Positions 1,393 to 15,297 of a DNA stretch of 15,297 nt are shown one piece after another. The stretch comes from Candidatus Hydrogenedens sp. Its GTDB lineage: Bacteria > Hydrogenedentota > Hydrogenedentia > Hydrogenedentales > Hydrogenedentaceae. Position 1 is the stretch's first letter; every line of letters begins with the position of its first letter. The stretch covers positions 1 through 15,297 of the forward strand of contig JAIWNQ010000278.1 of NCBI GenBank assembly GCA_020216745.1, read 5' to 3'. Position numbers and translations under genes: made by a program. A model generated the notes under the pieces. The model worked only from the letters and a program-made list of their open reading frames with translations. It was not told the DNA's origin and did not search any database.

Positions 1393-2409
1393 ATGTGCCG
1401 TAATTTCACGAAATTATTCAGTATTACAACTGTCATAGCATCATTGTTCTTTCTTACCAGTTGTGGTGGACAACAACAAACTTCTCCTACCACACCACCT
1501 TCTACACAACAGAAATCGCCGACCTCTACCCAAAAGATAAAAGTGGCTTTTATCACAAATAATGCGTCGGATTTCTGGAAGATAGCCGAGGCAGGAACGA
1601 AAAAAGCGGCACAAGATTTTGGTGTAGATGTTATTTTTCGCATCCCTTCAGCAGGAACTGCAGAACAACAACAGCAGATATTGCAAGATCTAATTACATT
1701 AGGTGTTGCTGGCATTGCAATAAGTCCAAAAGACCCCGAAAATCAAACAGAAATGTTAAACGAGGCGGCTAAAAAAACCAATCTTATTACACAAGATAGT
1801 GATGCCCCTAACAGTTTAAGAAAATGCTACATCGGAACAAATAATTTCGACGCAGGAGTTGAAGCAGGTAAATTAATTCAGGCTTGTACTCCACCAGGCT
1901 CTAAAATAATTGTCTGTGTCGGGACGTTAGATGCACAAAATGCACGAGACCGTTTAGACGGCTTAAAAAAGCAAATCGAATCAACAGGACACCAAATAAT
2001 TGATGTGCGTACAGACGAGACAGACCGTGCCAAAGCCATAGCCAATGTTCAGGATGCATTAGTCCGTTATCCAGATGTGGCATGTTTCGTCGGCTTATGG
2101 AGTTATAATGGACCCGCAATCTTGAATGGTGTTCGTGACTCAGGAAAATTGGGGCAGGTAAAGATTGTATGCTTTGATGAAGAAGATGAAACATTACAAG
2201 GCGTGAAAGATGGACATATTTACGGAACAGTAGTACAAAGACCCTTCGAGTTTGGATATCAATCCGTCAAAGTCTTAAAAGAACTTGCGGAAGGAAACAC
2301 AACCAGCATCCCTGAAAACAAACAAATTTTTATCCCTACATTATCAGTTACACGTGAAAATGTAGATACGTTCTGGTCTGAACTAAAACAGATATTAGGG
2401 AAATCTTAA
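1393..2409 (+). CDS. sugar ABC transporter substrate-binding lipoprotein (RbsB/periplasmic-binding type)
   Basis: The 338-residue product starts with a basic, hydrophobic signal peptide ending in a lipobox, LTSC, with Cys24 as the predicted lipidated residue. A Gln/Pro/Thr/Ser-rich tether (about 27-47) follows. The rest reads as a ribose-type periplasmic binding protein (Peripla_BP_4): KVAFITNNASDFW at the first strand, QQQILQDLITLGVAGIAISP, a central CYIGTNNFDAGVEAGKL, and VCFDEEDETLQGVKDGHIYGTVVQRPFEFGYQSV. Proteins of this family capture pentoses, hexoses or autoinducer-2 and deliver them to an RbsC-like permease. The ligand cannot be told from sequence alone. A strong ribosome-binding site, AAGGAGG (1379-1385), sits 7 nt before the ATG. 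The permease gene follows after a 23-bp gap, so the two are very likely one operon. Confidence 0.93.
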   Translation: MCRNFTKLFSITTVIASLFFLTSCGGQQQTSPTTPPSTQQKSPTSTQKIKVAFITNNASDFWKIAEAGTKKAAQDFGVDVIFRIPSAGTAEQQQQILQDLITLGVAGIAISPKDPENQTEMLNEAAKKTNLITQDSDAPNSLRKCYIGTNNFDAGVEAGKLIQACTPPGSKIIVCVGTLDAQNARDRLDGLKKQIESTGHQIIDVRTDETDRAKAIANVQDALVRYPDVACFVGLWSYNGPAILNGVRDSGKLGQVKIVCFDEEDETLQGVKDGHIYGTVVQRPFEFGYQSVKVLKELAEGNTTSIPENKQIFIPTLSVTRENVDTFWSELKQILGKS

Positions 2410-2432
2410 CAATTTCCAAAAGGTAACCTATA

Positions 2433-3518
2433 ATGCGGAAAACACTCGGTTTAATTGGATTAATTATTGTATTATGCATATTAGCCTATTCATGGGAATG
2501 GTTACATTGGTATCAACATGGAAGAGCATTAGGATTACCCTTTTCAAGTAATTTCTTATCCTTAACAAACTTCAAAAACTTACTTCCATGGATTGGCTTG
2601 TTCGGGATTTTGGCTTTGGCTCAATCCGTAGTAATTATTACAGGGGGTATTGACCTTTCCTTAGGCAGTGTAGTATGTCTAATTTCTGTTATCGCCTGCA
2701 TATTAATTAATAAAGGAGAAGGATGGTCACCATTTTTAGTATTTCCATTGGCAATTTGCATCTCCGCATTAATCGGCGTGTGGCATGGAGTTCTCATTTC
2801 CTATTTTAATATTCAGCCTTTCGTAGTAACGTTATGCGGTTTATTTGCATATCGAAGTTTTGCCCGATTTTTTGCCAAGGATACAACCCAAGGGTTTGGA
2901 AATGCATTATCAAACTGGAAATGGTTAGGCAAAGGTAGTCTTTTAGACTGGTTCCCTTCCTTACAGCCAACTGGTGGGTCACCACCATCGACCATCGCTC
3001 TCTTATTAGACTTAGTCGCAGCACCTTTAGTCATCATGATTATTTTCGCCATTATTGTAGGCATATTCCTTCATTTATCACCTATGGGCAGACACTTATT
3101 CGCATTAGGTGCCAACGAAGAGTCCGCCCGTTTTAGTGGAATCCAAACCAATCGACTTAAACTTATGGCTTATGTTATTTGTAGCCTTATCGCTGGAATT
3201 GGAGGCATTTTATTTGCATTTAAAGTAAATTCCGTCCAGCCATCTGATTTTGGTAGTTTTTATGAATTATACGCAGTAGCAGGAGCAGTATTAGGTGGAT
3301 GCAGTTTACGAGGCGGTACTGGAAACGTCCCCGGAGTTATTTTAGGAATTGCTTTGATTATGGTTCTGAGAAATCTGGTAAACATTTTAGGCATTCGGAG
3401 TGAGTTAGAATATGTCGTTATTGGTGGAGCCATTCTTGCCGGCGTGTGTGCCGATGAGTTTTTCTTGCGACGTTCACAAAAAAGACGTGCCCTTGAAGCC
3501 CAAAGAGAGACCAAATAA
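2433..3518 (+). CDS. sugar ABC transporter permease (RbsC/BPD_transp_2 family)
   Basis: This is a 361-residue, very hydrophobic membrane protein with about eight to ten membrane segments. It carries the family signature ITGGIDLSLGSV (residues 69-80), and the cytoplasmic coupling region GRHLFALGANEESARFSGI (219-237) followed by helices ending in GGCSLRGGTGNVPGVILG (288-305). These match the permeases of ribose, xylose, galactose and AI-2 importers. An insertion-like polar stretch between about 148 and 187, rich in Trp, Gly and Pro, lies between membrane segments and may form an external loop. The gene follows the binding protein closely, preceded by an AAAGGT ribosome-binding site, and its stop codon directly abuts the next start. 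The matching duplicated ATPase (RbsA type) is absent from this cluster, which is unusual, so the importer must borrow an ATPase from elsewhere. Confidence 0.93.
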   Translation: MRKTLGLIGLIIVLCILAYSWEWLHWYQHGRALGLPFSSNFLSLTNFKNLLPWIGLFGILALAQSVVIITGGIDLSLGSVVCLISVIACILINKGEGWSPFLVFPLAICISALIGVWHGVLISYFNIQPFVVTLCGLFAYRSFARFFAKDTTQGFGNALSNWKWLGKGSLLDWFPSLQPTGGSPPSTIALLLDLVAAPLVIMIIFAIIVGIFLHLSPMGRHLFALGANEESARFSGIQTNRLKLMAYVICSLIAGIGGILFAFKVNSVQPSDFGSFYELYAVAGAVLGGCSLRGGTGNVPGVILGIALIMVLRNLVNILGIRSELEYVVIGGAILAGVCADEFFLRRSQKRRALEAQRETK

Positions 3519-5900: not shown

Positions 5901-7427
5901 CTATCTTTCCATTGATTTTCCAATTCGATGAAAAGCAGGTGCTAATGCAGTATAGGCAGATTTATATTCTTGATACCAAAATTCATATTCATCTGCTTTT
6001 GTGCGGTCAGGTTCAACCCGCTCTATTTCCTTAATTATGCTGGAACATGCCTCTGTTAGTGAAGAGAACATCCCTGCAGAAATACTCGCTAATAAACCCG
6101 CTCCAAATGCAGGACCTTCATCAACATTAATTACTACCATAGGTACTTTACATACATCTGCCATAATTTGTCTCCATAATGTACTTCTTGCCCCTCCACC
6201 AGATATACGAACCTCGTTAATAGGTATCCCCATCCCTTTCATAATCTCAACACTGTCTCGCATCCCAAAAGCAACCCCTTCTAATACCGCTTTAGCCATT
6301 TCAGCTTTCCCATGCATTAAAGATAAACCAATAAATGCACCTCTTGCGTATGGGTCTTTATGAGGCGTTCGTTCCCCCGTAAGGTAAGGAAGGAACAAAA
6401 GACCGTTAGCACCTATTGGTACTTTTTCCGCAGATTGAGTTATATAAACATAAGTGTCAATTCCTGTCTCTTTTGATTTTGTTATCTCTTCCTGACATAA
6501 TTTGTTTCGAAACCATTGCAATGAACCACCTGCACTAAGCATTACACCCATGACATGCCAAGCCCCAGGTACAGAATGGCAAAATGTGTGAACTCGTCCT
6601 TGTGGGTCTGTGTGAACGCTTTCTGAGAATGCGAAAACAACGCCACTTGTGCCTAACGAAGCGGAAACAATTCCAGATTGAACAACACCGCAACCTACAC
6701 CACCTGCCGCTTGGTCTCCCCCTCCTGCAACGACAACTGTATTAGGTGGCAAACGAAGCTGTTCGGCGACAGAGGACTTAATAACCCCTGTTACTTCAGG
6801 TCCTTCATAAACTTTGGGTAACCACTCTATAGGAATTTCAAGCTTGTTTAGTAACTCCTGATGCCAACACCGTTGATTTACATTAAAAAGCAAAGTCCCG
6901 GACGCATCCGCAACATCGGAAGCAAACTCACCTGTAAGCTCATAGCGAATATAATCTTTAGGCAAAAGTACATGTTTGACTTTTTTATACACGTCTGGTT
7001 CTTCATTTCGTAACCATAAAATTTTTGGTGCTGTAAAACCTGTCAAAGCAGGATTAGAAACCATTCGAAGAAGTTCTGTTTCTCCAACAATCTCATTAAT
7101 TTTGTCACATTGTTTTGCTGTTCGTTGGTCACACCATAAAATAGCAGGATATAAAACATCACCTCTCTCATCTAAAAAAACAGAACCATGCATTTGTCCC
7201 GTTAAACCAATAGACCGCACTTCCATACTATTAATGCTCTGGCATATTTCTGAAAGACCATCAAATACAGCCTTTTTCCAATCCAGTGGGTTCTGTTCCG
7301 CCCAACCAGGTTTCGGACTTTTTAAGTCATAATTTTTGGTAAAAGACGCAACAACGGTTCCTTTTTCATTAATGGCTACAATTTTAGTGCCACTTGTGCC
7401 GACATCGATACCAATTACAAAACTCAT
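5901..7427 (-). CDS. xylB: xylulokinase (FGGY carbohydrate kinase)
   Basis: The enzyme phosphorylates D-xylulose with ATP to xylulose 5-phosphate, which enters the pentose phosphate pathway. The 508-residue length is typical. FGGY features in order are the phosphate-1 loop VIGIDVGTSGTKIV (4-17, Asp8), the substrate segment GQMHG (77-81), LWCDQRT (97-103), the catalytic GGGDQAAGGVG (235-245, Asp238), FLPYLTGERTPH, and the adenosine-site ISGGGARSTLWRQIMADV followed by GPAFGAGLLA. QMHG and WCDQRT favour xylulokinase over glycerol kinase or gluconokinase. A GAGGGA ribosome-binding site precedes the ATG. It is the last gene of the minus-strand run after sat and the glycosyltransferase, with an 85-bp gap that could hold its own promoter. 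It converges on the sugar-transporter cluster, which fits a pentose-use locus. Confidence 0.93.
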   Translation of the reverse strand: MSFVIGIDVGTSGTKIVAINEKGTVVASFTKNYDLKSPKPGWAEQNPLDWKKAVFDGLSEICQSINSMEVRSIGLTGQMHGSVFLDERGDVLYPAILWCDQRTAKQCDKINEIVGETELLRMVSNPALTGFTAPKILWLRNEEPDVYKKVKHVLLPKDYIRYELTGEFASDVADASGTLLFNVNQRCWHQELLNKLEIPIEWLPKVYEGPEVTGVIKSSVAEQLRLPPNTVVVAGGGDQAAGGVGCGVVQSGIVSASLGTSGVVFAFSESVHTDPQGRVHTFCHSVPGAWHVMGVMLSAGGSLQWFRNKLCQEEITKSKETGIDTYVYITQSAEKVPIGANGLLFLPYLTGERTPHKDPYARGAFIGLSLMHGKAEMAKAVLEGVAFGMRDSVEIMKGMGIPINEVRISGGGARSTLWRQIMADVCKVPMVVINVDEGPAFGAGLLASISAGMFSSLTEACSSIIKEIERVEPDRTKADEYEFWYQEYKSAYTALAPAFHRIGKSMER

Positions 7428-8591: not shown

Positions 8592-9749
8592 TTATGCCTT
8601 TTCACCTTGTGCCCATCTCTGCAATACAGATGACACCTCAGGCCGAGTAAATTCCTCAGGCAATGTTTCACCATTCTTTAACATCTCCCTAACCTTCGTT
8701 CCACTTAAAACAACATGCTTTGTGTTATCGTGTGGACATGTTTTGATAGATGCCATATTACCACATGCCCGACAATAAAAAGAATGGTCAAAAAATAGAG
8801 GCGTGATTTTTAATTCATTTGGCTCAAATTTATCGAATATTTTTTGAGCATCATACGTCCCATAATAATTCCCTACGCCAGCATGGTCTCTACCTACAAT
8901 AAAATGCGTACAACCATAATTTTTCCTAACAATAGCATGCATAATTGCTTCCTTAGGACCGGCATATCTCATATTCACTGGCATAATACTTAGTAACACA
9001 TGTTCCTTGGGATAATAATTATCAATCAGAGCTTTATAGCATTCCATACGGATACTCCCCGGTATATCATCACTTTTGGTTGTCCCCATCAATGGATGGA
9101 TTAGTAACCCATCACAAATTTCTAACGCACATTTTGTAAGATATTCATGAGCTCTGTGAATTGGATTACGCGTTTGAAAAGCAACAATTCGATTCCAACC
9201 TTTCTGTTCAAAATAATGTCGCGTTGCCTCTGGAGGCAAATTGTATTCTTCAAATTCTATAACTTTCTTTTCAAAAACCTCTACCCGACCCGATATAAAA
9301 ACATCCCCTAATCCATAAGTTCTCTTTACACCAGGATGTTTATCATCAAGAGTACCATATACTTTTTCCGCAAGGTATTTTTTATCAATACAGAATTTAT
9401 CTCTAACTGTGATAATTCCAATCAGTTGCTCTTCTGTATCATATAAAGCTACGTTTTCTCCTATTTCTATTTCCTCTGCTTTTTTTGAAGACACATCCAA
9501 CAAAATAGGGATAGTCCATGGAATCCCCGGTCGTAAATGCATCGTCTCTAAACAAGATAATGTTTCCTCTTCACACATAAAACCTTCTAAAGGACTAAAT
9601 ATCCCTTTTGCTATACAGTCCAAATCAAATGATAAATATTCGTCTAATTGAATTGATTTTAATCTCTTTGCTTCTTCACGTTTAACATTTCTTTCCACTA
9701 TAGAAACAAAACGATTAACTAATACTCCACCATGAGGCTCTATTGCCAT
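8592..9749 (-). CDS. sat: ATP sulfurylase (sulfate adenylyltransferase)
   Basis: The enzyme makes adenosine 5'-phosphosulfate and pyrophosphate from ATP and sulfate, the first step of sulfate activation, and is cytoplasmic. The 385-residue, single-polypeptide form carries the nucleotide-binding signature QTRNPIHRAHEY (192-203), GTTKSDDIPGSIRMECY (222-238), VNMRYAGPKEAIMHAIVRKN (258-277), VGRDHAGVG (285-293) and LSGTKVREML (348-357). A cysteine set CRACG-N8-C (326-338) matches the metal-binding site of prokaryotic Sat. No APS kinase domain is fused at the C-terminus. No APS reductase, APS kinase or sulfite reductase is in the window, so assimilation and dissimilation cannot be separated. Ribosome-binding site AAGGAT precedes the ATG at a somewhat long spacing. 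It heads the sat-glycosyltransferase-xylB run. Confidence 0.94.
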   Translation of the reverse strand: MAIEPHGGVLVNRFVSIVERNVKREEAKRLKSIQLDEYLSFDLDCIAKGIFSPLEGFMCEEETLSCLETMHLRPGIPWTIPILLDVSSKKAEEIEIGENVALYDTEEQLIGIITVRDKFCIDKKYLAEKVYGTLDDKHPGVKRTYGLGDVFISGRVEVFEKKVIEFEEYNLPPEATRHYFEQKGWNRIVAFQTRNPIHRAHEYLTKCALEICDGLLIHPLMGTTKSDDIPGSIRMECYKALIDNYYPKEHVLLSIMPVNMRYAGPKEAIMHAIVRKNYGCTHFIVGRDHAGVGNYYGTYDAQKIFDKFEPNELKITPLFFDHSFYCRACGNMASIKTCPHDNTKHVVLSGTKVREMLKNGETLPEEFTRPEVSSVLQRWAQGEKA

Positions 9750-9787
9750 TGATTATGAATCCTTATTAAAAAATGTTCTTCAGAAAC

Positions 9788-9813
9788 ATTACACGCACAT
9801 GTAATAAATTATA
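9788..9813 (-). promoter_or_regulatory. sat promoter -10 element with overlapping inverted repeat
   Basis: On the minus strand a perfect TATAAT (9813-9808) lies about 60 bp before the sat ATG. The -35 region is poor. An inverted repeat, ATTACA-N6-TGTAAT (9788-9805), spans the predicted transcription start and could be an operator. The promoter call rests on one hexamer in AT-rich DNA. Confidence 0.4.
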
Positions 9814-9858
9814 CTTTAGAAAGTAAAACAATTTCGAAAAAGGGTATATGCAAAAATC

Positions 9859-9903
9859 TTGGTAGACAAACTTAAATTATAAAACTACCAAAATAAGTAG
9901 TTT
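9859..9903. repeat. overlapping inverted repeats upstream of sat
   Basis: TTGGTAG (9859-9865) is complementary to CTACCAA (9885-9891), and AAACTAC (9882-9888) is complementary to GTAGTTT (9897-9903). The two pairings share bases, so the hairpins exclude each other. They lie between the ncRNA terminator and the sat promoter. They may be protein-binding half-sites or chance in AT-rich DNA. Confidence 0.35.
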
Positions 9904-9930
9904 ATATAACCAAATTAATTTTCTGAAATT

Positions 9931-9967
9931 TAAAATAAAAAAACCGCCGATTCTTTTGAATCGGCGG
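9931..9967 (-). terminator. strong intrinsic terminator on the minus strand
   Basis: A perfect 10-bp GC-rich stem, CCGCCGATTC/GAATCGGCGG (9944-9953 with 9958-9967), has a four-base AAAA loop. On the minus strand it is followed at once by seven T, one A and four T. The T-run occurs only on the minus strand, so it ends a transcript coming from higher coordinates. No credible protein gene lies upstream of it on that strand, which is what points to a non-coding RNA. Confidence 0.92.
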
Positions 9968-10259
9968 CTAGGGTATGTTTTTACCCTCTGCACGACCCTC
10001 TTTGGGGAGCGATGGATAAAGGGAAAGAGAGATGAGAGATTTGGTTTGTTTTGGAAGCGGTAATTAAGGGAGGGTATAATTTGGAAATGATATAAAGGGT
10101 AAGCGAGCATGAGAAGAATATATTAGGATTATGAAGACAATAGAGCCCACAGAGGAGCAAGCCGCAGCCCTTGTTAAATTTTTTGCTTTGACTGTGGGCT
10201 CTTAAAATATACTCTCACTCCTTCCTCAGGAGTACCTACTTTCTTATTCAATTGTTGTA
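9935..10259 (-). ncRNA. candidate sigma-54-dependent structured non-coding RNA, about 325 nt
   Basis: A near-consensus sigma-54 promoter at 10270-10285 predicts a start near 10259, and an intrinsic terminator ends at about 9935. No ORF with a ribosome-binding site fits between them. Structures along the RNA are: a 5' hairpin ACTCCT-N5-AGGAGT; an 11-bp closing stem AGAGCCCACAG/CTGTGGGCTCT (10192-10202 with 10142-10152) around a 39-nt loop that can form an inner CAAG/CTTG helix; a pyrimidine-rich tract (10107-10004) with only three G in 104 nt, including CCCTCCC; a 3' hairpin AGGGTA-N6-TACCCT; and the terminator. I see no match to tmRNA, RNase P, SRP RNA, 6S RNA or a common riboswitch class. 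A structured trans-acting sRNA is the best reading. It has no independent expression evidence here. Confidence 0.68.
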
Positions 10260-10269
10260 CTTATTATAT

Positions 10270-10285
10270 AGCAATACTTATGCCA
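10270..10285 (-). promoter_or_regulatory. sigma-54 (RpoN) -24/-12 promoter
   Basis: On the minus strand the sequence is TGGCAT-AAGTA-TTGCT, preceded by T-rich DNA. The GG (-25/-24) and GC (-13/-12) have the exact 10-bp spacing required for sigma-54, and the flanking bases match the TGGCAC-N5-TTGCA/T consensus at all but one position. The predicted start is near 10259. It points away from an adjacent sigma-54 activator gene, a classic layout. A visual search of the rest of the window found no comparable site. Confidence 0.82.
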
Positions 10286-10338
10286 AAACTATTTATTGAC
10301 TTATCTCATTGATTTGTAGCAATTTTATGTAATTTTTC

Positions 10339-10406
10339 ATTTCCAAAAAATGGAAATAGAACCCGCTTTTCCCAAATTGGGAACAATATTTTTCCCAAAT
10401 TGGGAA
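10339..10406. promoter_or_regulatory. three palindromic upstream activator sites for the sigma-54 promoter
   Basis: Two identical 15-bp palindromes TTCCCAAATTGGGAA lie at 10369-10383 and 10392-10406, with centres 23 bp (about two helical turns) apart. A related palindrome, ATTTCCA-N5-TGGAAAT, is at 10339-10357. Their centres are about 89, 117 and 140 bp upstream of the predicted sigma-54 start, the usual range for enhancer sites. The nearest to the activator gene ends just before its possible -35 box, so autoregulation is possible. Assignment to the neighbouring Fis-HTH protein is inferred from position. Confidence 0.75.
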
Positions 10407-10408
10407 AG

Positions 10409-10437
10409 TTGAATTCTGTTTTATTTTGTTGTATGCT
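10409..10437 (+). promoter_or_regulatory. possible sigma-70-type promoter of the activator gene
   Basis: TTGAAT (10409-10414), a 17-bp spacer and TATGCT (10432-10437) give a plausible promoter with a start near 10444 and a short leader before the ATG at 10460. Each box matches four of six consensus bases. The third activator palindrome ends 2 bp before the -35 box. Confidence 0.4.
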
Positions 10438-10459
10438 ATTATATAAGAAAGGGAAAGTT

Positions 10460-12340
10460 ATGTCTTATAAAAAGGAAGAAAATCAGAAATTTATTATTAC
10501 CGCTCGCTCCGGTTATGTCAAAGGTGGGGCATGGATAGTTCCAGAGGATACCCCTTTAACCATTGGTAGAGACCCAGTTTGTTCCATCGTTATTGAAGAC
10601 CCTCTCATATCTCGGCATCATTGTCAGATATTTATTTCGGGCTCAGAGTTAATAGTACGCGACCTCGGAAGCAGTAATTCAACATTTGTTAACGGGCATC
10701 CTGTCAAAGAAAAGGTGCTTAAGCCCGGAGATGATATTGGCGTTGGAAGCATCATTTTTTCAGTAGGAACAATAATTCATAAAGTTGGTGAAGAGTCAGA
10801 TGAAACAAAGAAGTTAAGAGCGACCCGACCATTGAAAATAGGTTCCCCTGTCTTTATTGAAGGCTCTCCGCAAAGTCTATTTGAATCAGGAAACCCACGA
10901 ACTGCGGAAGAACTTGTCGGTTTATTCTCATTAGCAAGAACATTGAGTCAACTGTATAAAGTTGAGGATATTGTCAATTATGTTCTGAAAACAATCAAAG
11001 AACGGTTTAGTCCAGATTTCCTATGCCTCGTGCAATTTTTAAATGACCCTCTCCAATTTTCAGTGTATCCCATAGAAGCAACACAGGTCGTTTCAGGGAC
11101 ACCAACCTTGCTCCAGTTGCTATCACAGATAAGAGAATCTCCCCGCGGAGTGCTCTATCCAGAAAGATTTTTTAGAAATGGCGAAACAGTGGTTCGCAAC
11201 ACGGTAATTGCACCCATCGCATTAGGCAAAGAAATTATAGGTGCCTTTGTTATCAGTGCAGATACGCCTCATCGGTTTTATGAGGAGGCAGACCTTGAAT
11301 ACTTACTGGCAATGGCTCATACGTTAGCTCCTTATATTCGTGCCGCTGAACGGATGCAACAGTTAGAATGGGAAAATCAACAATTAATTGCAGGGGGACT
11401 TAATTTTGACCCCCTTATAGGAAATAGCAAAGCAATACAAAAGGTTCGTGCTCTTGCACGTGATTGTGCTCGGTCAGACCTCTGTGTTTTAATCCTTGGC
11501 GAAACAGGCACAGGTAAGGAACTCGTTGCAAGATTAATACATAACCTTTCTCATCGTGCCCAGAAAAAACTGGTTGTTGTTAACTGTGCGGCTATTCCTG
11601 ACGAGTTGTTTGAAAGTGAACTCTTTGGTCATGAAAAAGGGGCTTTTACAGGGGCACACACAACAAAAATAGGATTAATGGAAGAAGCAGATAATGGAAC
11701 CCTGTTTTTAGATGAAATCGGAGACCTTAGCCTTTCTCATCAAGCTCGACTCCTTCGAGCAATTGAAACAGGAACTTTTAGAAGGGTCGGTGGAAATACT
11801 GATATTCATGTTAATGTCCGTGTCCTATGTGCCACGAATAAAGACCTACCCGCAGAAGTTAATGCGGGCAGATTTCGAAGAGACCTATTCCACCGACTAA
11901 ATGCCTTCGTTATTACTATACCACCCCTTCGTGAACGACGCGACGATATACCAATTCTCGCCGATTATTTCTTACAGCAAGTGAGACGAAGATTTCCTGT
12001 GCGACCCAAACAGTTCTCTCCCCAAGCATTAAAATGGTTGGACAGCCAACCTTGGTATGGTAACGTCCGTGAATTACGAAACCTAATCGAACGCTCCGCT
12101 GTCGTAGCACGAGCAGACATAATTCAGCCTCAAGACCTTGCCACAGAATTAAAAGAATACACCACGGAAAAATTTCTTACACTTGAAGAAATGGAAAAAG
12201 AGCATATTATAAAAGCATTACAACGATGTCAAGGAAATGTTGTTTCTTCCGCTGAATTACTCGGAATTGGCAAAAGTACCCTTTACAGGAAAATAGCAGA
12301 ATACCAAATAAATCCTTCCGCATATATAAATGGCAAATAA
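10460..12340 (+). CDS. sigma-54 enhancer-binding protein with FHA, GAF, AAA+ and Fis-type HTH domains
   Basis: This activator remodels sigma-54 RNA polymerase using ATP. From the ATG at 10460 it has 626 residues. An FHA domain (about 12-105) shows GRD (36-38), SRHH (51-54) and GSSNSTFVNG (70-79), the phosphothreonine-binding residues. A GAF-like domain (about 150-300) follows. The AAA+ core has Walker A GETGTGKE (347-354), an intact GAFTGA loop (394-399) that contacts sigma-54, Walker B GTLFLDEIGD (413-422) and an R-finger region FRRDLFHRL. A Fis-type HTH lies at about 576-615 (VVSSAELLGIGKSTLYRKI). There is no response-regulator receiver domain, so input is likely through a Ser/Thr kinase via FHA or a GAF ligand. 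A longer TTG start at 10400 lies inside a palindrome and is less likely; AAAGGGA precedes the chosen ATG. Probable targets are the adjacent palindromes. Confidence 0.93.
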   Translation: MSYKKEENQKFIITARSGYVKGGAWIVPEDTPLTIGRDPVCSIVIEDPLISRHHCQIFISGSELIVRDLGSSNSTFVNGHPVKEKVLKPGDDIGVGSIIFSVGTIIHKVGEESDETKKLRATRPLKIGSPVFIEGSPQSLFESGNPRTAEELVGLFSLARTLSQLYKVEDIVNYVLKTIKERFSPDFLCLVQFLNDPLQFSVYPIEATQVVSGTPTLLQLLSQIRESPRGVLYPERFFRNGETVVRNTVIAPIALGKEIIGAFVISADTPHRFYEEADLEYLLAMAHTLAPYIRAAERMQQLEWENQQLIAGGLNFDPLIGNSKAIQKVRALARDCARSDLCVLILGETGTGKELVARLIHNLSHRAQKKLVVVNCAAIPDELFESELFGHEKGAFTGAHTTKIGLMEEADNGTLFLDEIGDLSLSHQARLLRAIETGTFRRVGGNTDIHVNVRVLCATNKDLPAEVNAGRFRRDLFHRLNAFVITIPPLRERRDDIPILADYFLQQVRRRFPVRPKQFSPQALKWLDSQPWYGNVRELRNLIERSAVVARADIIQPQDLATELKEYTTEKFLTLEEMEKEHIIKALQRCQGNVVSSAELLGIGKSTLYRKIAEYQINPSAYINGK

Positions 12341-13012: not shown

Positions 13013-15297
13013 ATGAAAAACAAACTATCATTTAATCTTCATTCAAAATCTATTGCTAAGTCAGTGTTATTTGTTATTCTTGTATCATTCATGGTGGCTT
13101 TTCATGGTTGGTCTGCAACTACTATAAGCACTATAGAGGAATTGCAAAGCATAGGCAATTCACCTCTATATCCCCTCAATGGTGAATATGAATTAACACA
13201 GGATATTGATGCGTCTGATACCGTTAACTGGAATGGTGGACAAGGTTTTTTGCCCATTGGTTCATTAGCAACGCCATTTACAGGCAGGCTTGACGGTAAA
13301 GGATATAAAATCATTAATTTGTATATTAACCGCCCCTTAACTGATTATATTGGTTTATTAAATAATGTTTCATCAACTGGGATAATAACAAATGTAGTTT
13401 TTGAAAATAGTTCTATTACAGGAAGAAATAATGTAGGTATAATTGCAGGTAGAAACAGTGGAACCATAGAGAAATGTAATACCCAAGGTGGGTCAGTTGT
13501 AGCATCGGAAAATACAGGCGCCCTTGTCGGTTATAATATTGGAAACATACGAAGAAGTTATTCCAACACAACATCCGTAACAGGAACAAACTTTGTAGGT
13601 GGTTTAGTTGGCCGTAATGAAAGCATTGTTGAACAATGTTATTCTATGGGTAGCGTTGTTGGAAATAATAGTGTTGGAGGTTTAGTAGGAGGAAGTGTAG
13701 CCAAACGGGCTTCAATTAGCAGATGTTATTCATACAGTTCAGTTTTAGGTTATGTCTCAAATATTGGAGGTTTAGTTGGCTCCTTTACGTTAAATGGAAA
13801 GATACGATATTCGTATTCAACAGGCTCTGTTGCTGGTGCCTCAAATACAGGAGGATTAATTGGCTATCGTTCTGCAGGATTAGTTCAGTCAAGTTATTGG
13901 AATACTGAGACCTCCGGATGGACAACCTCTGCAGGTGGTACGGGCAAAACAACAGCACAAATGAAACAACAGAATACATATAAAGGCTGGCAATTTGGAA
14001 CTGTTTGGGGAATCGTGGAAAATGTAACATATCCCTATTTCTTGTGGCAATATACTGTGCCTGATGTCGTCGGTTTAACTATAGATGACGCAACTATAAT
14101 ATTAAACAATAACAGTTTTATATTAGGCTCAGTGAGTGAAATATGTAGTTCACTTTTTCCTGCAGGAACAATAGTAGGTCAAGATCCACTCGCAGGAACA
14201 CAATCGCCTCCAGGTAGTCCAGTAAACGTCACTATTTCCACAGGACCGTGTCCCGGCGGAGTTGTACCTTATGTTATAGGTTTATTCTTAACAAATGCAG
14301 AAACAGAAATCATTTCAGCAGGACTTACTGTCGGAAATATCAACTATCAATGTGATAATATTGTTCCAGCAGATAGAGTTATAAGCCAAAACCCACAAGC
14401 CGGTTTGGAGGTTCCCTTAGAAAGCCCGGTTGACTTAATAGTATCAACAGGACCTTGTCTAGTTATTGTCCCAAATGTAACAGGTAAATTCTTGGATGAT
14501 GCAGATGATACGTTGGTTAATGCCGGATTATATACAGGAAATATTCAACAGCAATGTAGTAATACTGTTCCTGCGGGTAAAATTATCAGCCAAAACCCAT
14601 CAGCTGGTACTGAAGTTCCATACGGCAGTTCTGTTGATTTAATTGTTTCTGATGGTCCATGTAATGTTATAGTCCCTAATGTTGTAGGCAAAACCTTAAA
14701 TGATGCGGCAATTGATTTAACCAATGTGGGATTAAATGTAGGAGTAGTTCAATATATATGTGATGACGTAGTTCCTGCTGATAATGTTATAAGTCAGAGT
14801 CCTTTGGCTGGTCAACAGATTCCATACGGCAGTTCTGTAAACCTCGTAGTTTCTTCCGGTCCATGTCCAGAAGGTGAGGGCGTTATTGAAGGGGAAGGTA
14901 TAGTCGAAGGAGAAGGAATAGTTGAAGGGGAAGGTGTTATTGAAGGGGAAGGTGCAGTCGAAGGAGAAGGAACACCGGATATAACTACAGTGCCATACGT
15001 AGTAGGGGAAGAAATCACAATTGCAACATCTGAGATTGAAAATGCTTTGTTAGTAGTTGGAACAATCACAGAAGAATGTAATGACATATATCCTGCAGGA
15101 ACAGTTTTTGACCAGAAACCTCTAGGTGGCGAAATAATTGAGATAGGTAGTTTGGTAAATCTATGGGTTTCAACAGGACCTTGTCCAGAAGGAGAAGGCT
15201 CTACAGAAGGTGCGGTCGAAGGCTCTACCGAAGGTGGAACTGAAGGTTCGATAGAAGGCTCTATTGAAGGTGCGGTCGAAGGCTCTACCGAAGGCGG
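13013..15297 (+). CDS. secreted GLUG-repeat and PASTA-like repeat protein with EGEG linkers (partial, C-terminus off the right edge)
   Basis: The frame is open for 761 codons to the window end. The ATG at 13013 follows a strong AAGGAAGGAG site. A signal peptide with a hydrophobic core (SVLFVILVSFMVAF) likely ends near HGWSA. Residues about 35-340 hold at least six GLUG-type repeats such as NFVGGLVGRNESIVEQCYS, which form beta-helix-like or adhesin surfaces. Four PASTA-like repeats run from residue 349 to about 619, each opening VP-V-G and closing with (S/D)GPC, with a second Cys in mid-repeat. An acidic EGEGVI/EGEGIV linker (about 620-653) leads to a fifth PASTA-like repeat (from 660), then an EGS/EGAV repeat. 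Secretion and cell-surface or extracellular binding are likely. The exact ligand is unknown. Unlike PASTA kinases, no kinase domain or transpeptidase is present in the visible part. Confidence 0.9.
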   Translation, partial: MKNKLSFNLHSKSIAKSVLFVILVSFMVAFHGWSATTISTIEELQSIGNSPLYPLNGEYELTQDIDASDTVNWNGGQGFLPIGSLATPFTGRLDGKGYKIINLYINRPLTDYIGLLNNVSSTGIITNVVFENSSITGRNNVGIIAGRNSGTIEKCNTQGGSVVASENTGALVGYNIGNIRRSYSNTTSVTGTNFVGGLVGRNESIVEQCYSMGSVVGNNSVGGLVGGSVAKRASISRCYSYSSVLGYVSNIGGLVGSFTLNGKIRYSYSTGSVAGASNTGGLIGYRSAGLVQSSYWNTETSGWTTSAGGTGKTTAQMKQQNTYKGWQFGTVWGIVENVTYPYFLWQYTVPDVVGLTIDDATIILNNNSFILGSVSEICSSLFPAGTIVGQDPLAGTQSPPGSPVNVTISTGPCPGGVVPYVIGLFLTNAETEIISAGLTVGNINYQCDNIVPADRVISQNPQAGLEVPLESPVDLIVSTGPCLVIVPNVTGKFLDDADDTLVNAGLYTGNIQQQCSNTVPAGKIISQNPSAGTEVPYGSSVDLIVSDGPCNVIVPNVVGKTLNDAAIDLTNVGLNVGVVQYICDDVVPADNVISQSPLAGQQIPYGSSVNLVVSSGPCPEGEGVIEGEGIVEGEGIVEGEGVIEGEGAVEGEGTPDITTVPYVVGEEITIATSEIENALLVVGTITEECNDIYPAGTVFDQKPLGGEIIEIGSLVNLWVSTGPCPEGEGSTEGAVEGSTEGGTEGSIEGSIEGAVEGSTEG
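14870..14971 (+). repeat. 18-bp in-frame repeat coding for EGEG-x-x linker
   Basis: About five and a half imperfect copies of an 18-bp unit encode the hexapeptide Glu-Gly-Glu-Gly followed by two of Val, Ile or Ala. The linker separates the fourth and fifth PASTA-like repeats. Third-position changes between copies suggest selection on the peptide. Confidence 0.85.
15191..15297 (+). repeat. 60-bp tandem repeat encoding Glu-Gly-Ser/Ala-Val linker, continuing past the window
   Basis: Bases 15206-15234 and 15266-15294 are identical over 29 nt, 60 bp apart, inside a longer similar unit. The peptide reads as EGS, EGA and EGG triplets. Near-identity at DNA level indicates recent duplication, unlike the older EGEG repeat upstream. 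The array is cut by the edge. Confidence 0.8.

Follow-up and report, generated by a model that had tools for sequence, protein, structure and literature searches.

An FHA-type sigma-54 activator and a divergent non-coding RNA form a predicted, recurrent circuit in Hydrogenedentota

Organization of the locus

The DNA analysed here (the window, a stretch of 15,297 nt) is contig C38 of genome G000, a Candidatus Hydrogenedens sp. genome of 3.1 Mb that is 86% complete, and the subject of this report is a gene for a sigma-54 activator on its plus strand, together with the 710-bp gap that separates this gene from sat on the minus strand. The gap contains a -24/-12 promoter, upstream palindromes and a predicted non-coding RNA. 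The order of sat, gap and activator is the same in all four genomes of the genus set (G000, the source of the window, and G001, G002 and G003); broader comparisons used a phylum set of 68 genomes, all from one order. A plasmid DNA search with the window gave no match.

The activator (626 aa; positions 10460..12340, plus strand, from ATG to stop) was described in the initial annotation as an FHA-GAF-AAA+-helix-turn-helix (HTH) protein with an intact GAFTGA, and this architecture was assessed from Pfam, motifs, orthologs and an AlphaFold model. Pfam and a motif check confirm an FHA domain (2.7e-20), Sigma54_activat (9e-69) and a Fis-type HTH (8e-14), and the protein retains an intact GAFTGA as well as an intact FHA core (GRD...SRHH). 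The GAF domain is recovered in the family (GAF_2 in 18/19 orthologs at E<=0.1; best 3e-7) but lies under the cut-off in the window protein (GAF_2, E 0.0016). Orthologs at E<=1e-165 occur in 19 of the 68 phylum genomes, the window genome counted, and all 19 match the FHA domain as well as both AAA+ and the Fis-type HTH; the loop reads GAFTGA in 16, GAYTGA in two and GSFTGA in one. FHA domains contact phosphothreonine through the motif GR, SxxH, N, and residues G36 R37, S51 R52 H54 and N73 of the FHA domain are invariant across the orthologs. From these intact residues alone, a phosphothreonine input to the activator may be inferred.

From the N-terminus, the AlphaFold model (mean predicted local distance difference test score, pLDDT, 82; predicted template modelling score, pTM, 0.44) shows a beta-rich domain (10-105), then an alpha/beta domain (149-311) and the ATPase, and it closes with an HTH at the C-terminus. 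Close named relatives of the protein come from Candidatus Hydrogenedens sp. and Candidatus Hydrogenedentes; among 49 relatives in named genomes, two are genus members and most others (Flavobacterium etc.) align over the ATPase part only. RpoN was found in all four genus genomes. In two loci outside the genus, L089 (G037) and L092 (G034), the activator is preceded by genes that by eye are putative sugar-phosphate transferases of exopolysaccharide synthesis, which may point to the pathway under control.

The -24/-12 promoter (TGGCATAAGTATTGCT, 10270..10285, minus strand) faces away from the activator gene and matches TGGCAN6TTGCT exactly in all four genus loci. The exact spacing reported in the initial annotation is borne out: the gap from GG to GC is exactly 10 nt, and the form TGGCAT-N5-TTGCTAT, with GG-N10-GC, is identical in the four loci. 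When the 460-nt region was Markov-shuffled 200 times, no shuffle gave a promoter match as good as that of the window. Positions relative to the predicted start are quoted below, with the caveat that two counts of this start differ by about 3 nt.

Three palindromes had been proposed, at about -89, -117 and -140, and all three are present, at -88.5, -116 and -139.5. The two distal ones form a pair (TTCCCANNNTGGGAA) with perfect 6-nt arms of the type TTCCCA-N3-TGGGAA. The first upstream activating palindrome (TTCCCAAATTGGGAA, 10392..10406, no strand assigned) is exact in G000, G001, G002 and G003, and the second (10369..10383, likewise unstranded, 23 nt from the first) is exact in three of the four genus loci, with 3 mismatches in G001. 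Genus-wide the centres lie near -141 and -118, spaced 23 nt apart, with the second degenerate in G001. The proximal palindrome (TTTCCATTTTTTGGAAA; feature ATTTCCAAAAAATGGAAAT, 10339..10357, unstranded) differs in sequence from the other two and is less conserved, and its role is doubtful because a similar palindrome occurs only in G002 among the other three genus loci. The exact palindrome is confined to the activator gap in the four genus genomes, apart from a single G003 copy that falls within an open frame of 770 residues; given this restriction, the activator looks dedicated.

The predicted RNA

The putative non-coding RNA (323 nt, 9937..10259, minus strand) is delimited by the genus alignment, the promoter and an intrinsic terminator (9942..9969, minus strand) that has 12 pairs and a T run. 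Predicted transcript lengths in the four genus loci are 323, 298, 297 and 228 nt, each with a strong terminator. Upstream of the terminator the transcript contains hairpin 1 (ACUCCUGAGGAAGGAGU, 10217..10233, minus strand), whose loop is GAGGA and which is common to a widespread tandem RNA family described below; hairpin 2 (10143..10201, minus strand), which encloses the conserved AACAARGGCUGCGGCUUG and has a 3-nt insertion near its 3' end in G001; and a 3' module (CUCCCCAAAGAGGGUCGUGCAGAGG, 9985..10009, minus strand). The proposed 33-pair structure forms in 94.7% of cells of the genus alignment. Changes on both sides of a pair were found in seven of the 33 pairs (shuffled mean 2.9), six of the seven in the terminator, where 6/11 pairs show them; hairpins 1 and 2 are too conserved for a covariation test. 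The initial annotation had staked its reading on conservation of the promoter GG/GC and of the stems, and both are found, with GG-N10-GC in 4/4 loci and stems that keep pairing. A 29-nt stretch of the RNA (AUUACCGCUUCCAAAACAAACCAAAUCUC, 10036-10064, minus strand) is identical in three of the four genus members and absent in G001, and it is a candidate target-pairing region.

The description of the transcript as terminated and lacking an open reading frame (ORF) agrees with the genus alignment, in which no sign of coding is apparent because the window RNA carries insertions of 31 and 8 nt relative to its three relatives, a judgement from the alignment and not a coding-potential test. The RNA was not recognised in the initial annotation, and the window has no Rfam match at the gathering score; the 22 weak matches at E<=5 within 9750-10460 all fall under it. 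Rfam families include GlmY/GlmZ, Qrr, CrcZ and CsrB.

Recurrence of the switch across the phylum

The same promoter-palindrome geometry recurs in other families of the phylum, even where RNA and activator lie on separate contigs. When the gaps upstream of the activator in 19 ortholog loci were examined for a divergent -24/-12 promoter with at most one mismatch, eight had one: the four genus members, G017, G022, G021 and G051. The best candidates in the remaining 11 have 2-4 mismatches, as do 17-100% of Markov shuffles. The conserved synteny of activator and promoter/RNA expected from the initial annotation is therefore complete in the genus (4/4 loci) but extends to only 8/19 ortholog loci, and this count includes G021, whose gap lacks such palindromes. 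The palindrome pair also stands beside the activator in G017 (-165/-142), G022 (-163/-140) and G051 (-164/-141), each time 23 nt apart.

A scan of the 68 genomes with the pattern TCCCANNNTGGGA-N10-TCCCANNNTGGGA, allowing at most 3 mismatches, matched the pair in 19 genomes, compared with five for a reversed-pattern control. Fifteen of these 19 have a -24/-12 promoter (at most 2 mismatches of 10) at a fixed distance from the pair centre, 102-104 nt in the genus and 123-126 nt in the others, including 123-125 nt in G017, G022 and G051. Eight genomes (G011, G043, G047, G055, G031, G037, G026 and G034) have the pair on a different contig from the activator, 125-126 nt from a -24/-12 promoter. In G011, G043, G047, G031, G037, G026 and G034 the activator itself has no adjacent RNA. 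"Self-contained", as the module had been called, does not hold generally, since this separation affects eight of the 15 genomes. The scan gave one or two palindrome pairs per genome, and G047 holds two pair sites.

Switch and activator also co-occur. Fourteen of the 15 full-switch genomes belong to the 19 with an ortholog (Fisher 1e-9 by genome, kinship uncorrected), and counted by genus, full switch against ortholog gives 7/10 versus 0/34 (Fisher 3e-6, also uncorrected for kinship). The closest activator in G055 shares only 43% identity. As a control, FHA activators at a greater distance (41-44% identity) were examined: of nine that could be oriented (11 tried), one has an exact divergent -24/-12 promoter and one a promoter with two mismatches. 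At locus L080 (G013:C61), a more distant FHA activator stands beside an exact divergent -24/-12 promoter. The pairs in G045, G052 and G042 (3 mismatches each) have no promoter nearby and were taken as chance, as was a second G003 site (C24, 3 mismatches).

RNA elements outside the genus

Shared elements were counted in the first 400 nt of 16 transcripts, chosen by pair plus promoter from 15 genomes (two from G047; G021 left out); the G047:C127 transcript was counted with a shifted start (promoter at 80 nt; better candidate at 126 nt). The sequence CUCCGGUGAGG is exact in 5/16 transcripts (shuffled mean 0.007), and the 3' module CUCC..GAGG..GCAGAGG, in the wider form [CG]UCC..GAGG..GCAG[AG]G[AG], occurs in 8/16 (shuffled mean 0.003), although these shuffled rates flatter both elements because both patterns were written after the transcripts had been viewed, which tells against the circuit interpretation weighed below. 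The G021 transcript also carries CUCCGGUGAGG. Carriers of the 3' module are G000, G002, G003, G017, G022, G011, G055 and G031; three of the sequences align poorly, and in most the module stands shortly upstream of the terminator, as far as can be judged. Six activator loci gave no Rfam match at E<=0.05.

Some sites lie ahead of protein genes. In genus g13 (G037, G034 and G026) an element, CUCCGGUGAG, begins 12-15 nt past the predicted start, with one mismatch in G026, and in G034 and G026 a same-strand protein of at least about 380 aa follows that has no Pfam match at E<=0.01; in this genus, protein genes with CUCCGGUGAG leaders seem to be under the control of the same switch. The G047:C127 site lies ahead of a leucine-rich-repeat protein gene.

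A second, tandem RNA family

A covariance model of the genus RNAs (R1) also gave weak extra matches. These are units, often in tandem with a period of about 110-135 nt, that share the hairpin GGUACUCYUGRGGAAGGAGUG; in the tandem units the hairpin loop GRGGA lies within a variable long stem, with an internal loop AGGU/GACGUGAG. A second covariance model (R2), built on a 46-nt motif and trained on copies from nine genomes, matches 54 of the 68 genomes at E<=0.5; in most cases a single locus holds the 1-4 copies. The window genome has two R2 copies on C66 (6924-6969 and 7052-7097) and one in the window, and in G003 the activator-linked copy is the sole match. An independent test came from a hidden Markov model (HMM) built on the tandem copies only, which puts the four genus RNAs at the top of 19 activator loci (E 6.7e-6 to 1.5e-3); an HMM trained outside the genus scores them at 4e-4, 0.008, 0.01 and 0.24. 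Seven tandem loci gave no Rfam match at E<=0.05.

Likeness among the pentaloops GAGGA, GGGGA and GGUGA was seen by eye. A likeness of the hairpin in G055 and G047 (CUUGGGGAAG), also noted by eye, reached a best E of 0.5 and was discounted. In the six tandem loci for which ORFs were listed (L111, L112, L114, L115, L117 and L118), the next gene downstream is convergent and codes for some 400 aa or more, and by eye the N-terminus of the products of the convergent genes resembles a zinc-finger anti-sigma protein.

Interpretation and alternatives

The intact activator, promoter, palindrome pair, fixed spacing, terminator, conserved stems and phylum co-occurrence, all of them sequence-level observations, make it very probable that an FHA-type one-component activator binds the palindrome pair 23 bp apart and drives sigma-54 transcription of the non-coding RNA as its main job. 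The circuit proposed in the initial annotation is in this sense supported by comparative genomics. The FHA domain, perhaps with the GAF domain, would gate the ATPase through a phosphothreonine partner or a ligand; the activator would assemble on the palindrome pair, reach sigma-54 polymerase by DNA looping and open the promoter; and an RNA of about 115-350 nt (228-323 nt in the genus) would end at the terminator. The RNA may act in trans without Hfq (PF17209), which was found in 0/20 genomes while 5/14 control genomes were positive, and its purine pentaloop hairpin and 3' module could be offered to an RNA-binding protein or to target mRNAs.

Several observations weigh against this interpretation. 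The strong matches of R1 are the four genus copies only, indicating that the RNA diverges fast, and R2 and the tandem-copy HMM fail on activator-linked RNAs outside the genus. The G011 and G055 transcripts overlap ORFs of about 100 aa, which were taken for chance, the G031 terminator is poor, and the terminator scan missed some terminators that are acceptable by eye, such as that of G011. G022 has a degenerate pair, its palindromes carrying 3 and 4 mismatches (shuffle P 0.16), and the promoters of G037 and G047:C127 carry two mismatches. G010, G016, G021 and G040 have the ortholog and no palindrome pair in the scan, and in G023 the pair lies at a contig end, with no promoter on one side and the other side cut off. 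The 102/125-nt rule fails for a second G026 pair (C176, L096:823-858; 2 mismatches), located just downstream of where the activator gene stops; an exact -24/-12 promoter is found at a distance of 78 nt.

Among other explanations, the RNA could be a CsrA sponge of the CsrB/RsmZ kind, given that CsrA is present in 12/15 genomes (including three of the four genus members, though not the window's own genome), that Hfq is missing from the genomes searched, and that the loop GAGGA contains GGA. The RNAs are not enriched in GGA, however, with 2, 5, 4 and 3 occurrences in the genus RNAs (counted anywhere, not in loops alone) against Markov-shuffle means of 3.3, 4.7, 3.5 and 2.9, and the loop GGUGA in CUCCGGUGAGG outside the genus (by eye) has no GGA; for lack of this enrichment the sponge is not favoured and appears improbable. 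Somewhat less probable still is that the transcript is a regulated 5' leader of sat, an attenuator or riboswitch, and not a separate RNA. The ATP sulfurylase gene (sat, 8592..9749, minus strand) does lie downstream on the same strand, past the intrinsic terminator, in all four genus loci, but a conserved sigma-70-like promoter (9808..9837, minus strand; 10/12 matches, aligned in 4/4 genus loci) stands between terminator and gene, in a region with six promoter-like sites against 4.2 in shuffles. Moreover, a search of 17 stretches around activators beyond the genus gave no sat at E<=1e-20, and the next gene converges in G022, G021 and G043. The sat gene is probably a neighbour outside the module.

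That the palindromes chiefly autoregulate the activator gene, with an incidental -24/-12 promoter, would suit their positions in the window, where their centres precede the activator ATG by 61 and 84 bp; the eight genomes whose pair and activator are on separate contigs, with the pair still 125-126 nt from a -24/-12 promoter, make this very unlikely. The least likely of all is a transcript that encodes a small protein. ORFs of 25, 28, 59 and 77 aa exist on the transcript strand, the longest extending beyond the terminator, yet the 31- and 8-nt indels interrupt the genus alignment and, by eye, no ORF is common to the G017, G022, G051 and G021 transcripts.

A more elaborate proposal builds on the activator-driven RNA circuit and is considerably more speculative than it, though less remote than these alternatives. 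The phosphothreonine-reading activator might control a new class of RNA in a phylum that lacks a recognisable Hfq, and in Hydrogenedens this RNA might be an inducible decoy that competes with the tandem family for an RNA-binding protein. The Hydrogenedens RNA carries the apical hairpin of the tandem family and would therefore compete for a shared protein, much as GlmY shields GlmZ. For the genus, such a decoy is the favoured, though speculative, idea of how the RNA acts.

Neighbouring genes

Elsewhere in the window, positions 1393-3518 hold two genes that by eye resemble an ABC-transporter sugar-binding protein and permease, and 5901-7427 encodes an FGGY carbohydrate kinase. Beyond the activator, 13013-15295 encodes a secreted-looking protein with PASTA repeats (five stretches), a weak GLUG motif and EGEG-rich low-complexity linkers, which extends past the window.

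Relation to known systems and significance

Enhancer-binding proteins encoded next to a small RNA partner are already well known, and the wiring here is that of GlmY/QseF, CrcZ/CbrB and Pxr/PxrR; what is new is that the activator is a one-component protein of FHA type, together with the operator code, the phylum and the RNA families. In Vibrio, the sigma-54 activator LuxO and the Qrr RNAs belong to a quorum-sensing phosphorelay and depend on Hfq. Enhancer-binding proteins of FHA type, with FHA, AAA+ and HTH, occur in Myxococcus, and to our knowledge no dedicated RNA is associated with them.

The following comparisons draw on excerpts of the cited papers. In Escherichia coli the sigma-54 small RNA gene glmY adjoins the operon of its activator QseF (GlrR), with three upstream sites and conserved synteny, as in the genus here, but QseF, a two-component response regulator, has sites of the form TGTN12ACA, and GlmY is a different RNA (PMC6075780). 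Here, by comparison, no two-component-type kinase is among the five window proteins scanned, and Hfq is missing as described above. The NtrC-like gene pxrR of Myxococcus xanthus lies directly upstream of the small RNA gene pxr, which has a predicted sigma-54 promoter and enhancer, an arrangement kept across the myxobacteria examined; PxrR differs in working with the histidine kinase PxrK, the RNA is another one, and the excerpt mentions no FHA domain (PMC5684412). CbrB of Pseudomonas is likewise a sigma-54 activator that drives regulatory RNAs (CrcZ/CrcY), which sequester a protein, but it uses non-palindromic subsites, belongs to a two-component system and drives other genes too (PMC6296734), directly controlling at least 61 genes as against the one or two palindrome pairs per genome seen here.

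Among the matches listed in the open-licence literature (titles and abstract beginnings), none reported such a circuit or RNA in Hydrogenedentota, and none a pairing of an FHA activator with a small RNA. A word search of the main text of PMC12316311, on sigma-54 regulons across phyla, found neither this phylum nor small RNA nor FHA.

A regulator whose architecture suggests that it reads protein phosphorylation seems, through DNA elements that are precisely spaced and widely conserved, to turn on a previously undescribed small RNA, a link that would join two kinds of signalling. Two RNA families that match nothing in Rfam also come to light, one of which is matched in 54/68 phylum genomes. For a little-studied, uncultured phylum, sequence analysis here predicts a concrete, testable circuit (activator, operator code, promoter, spacing and RNA) that 15 genomes repeat, and if the FHA domain does gate the activator, Ser/Thr phosphorylation would feed directly into RNA control without a two-component system.

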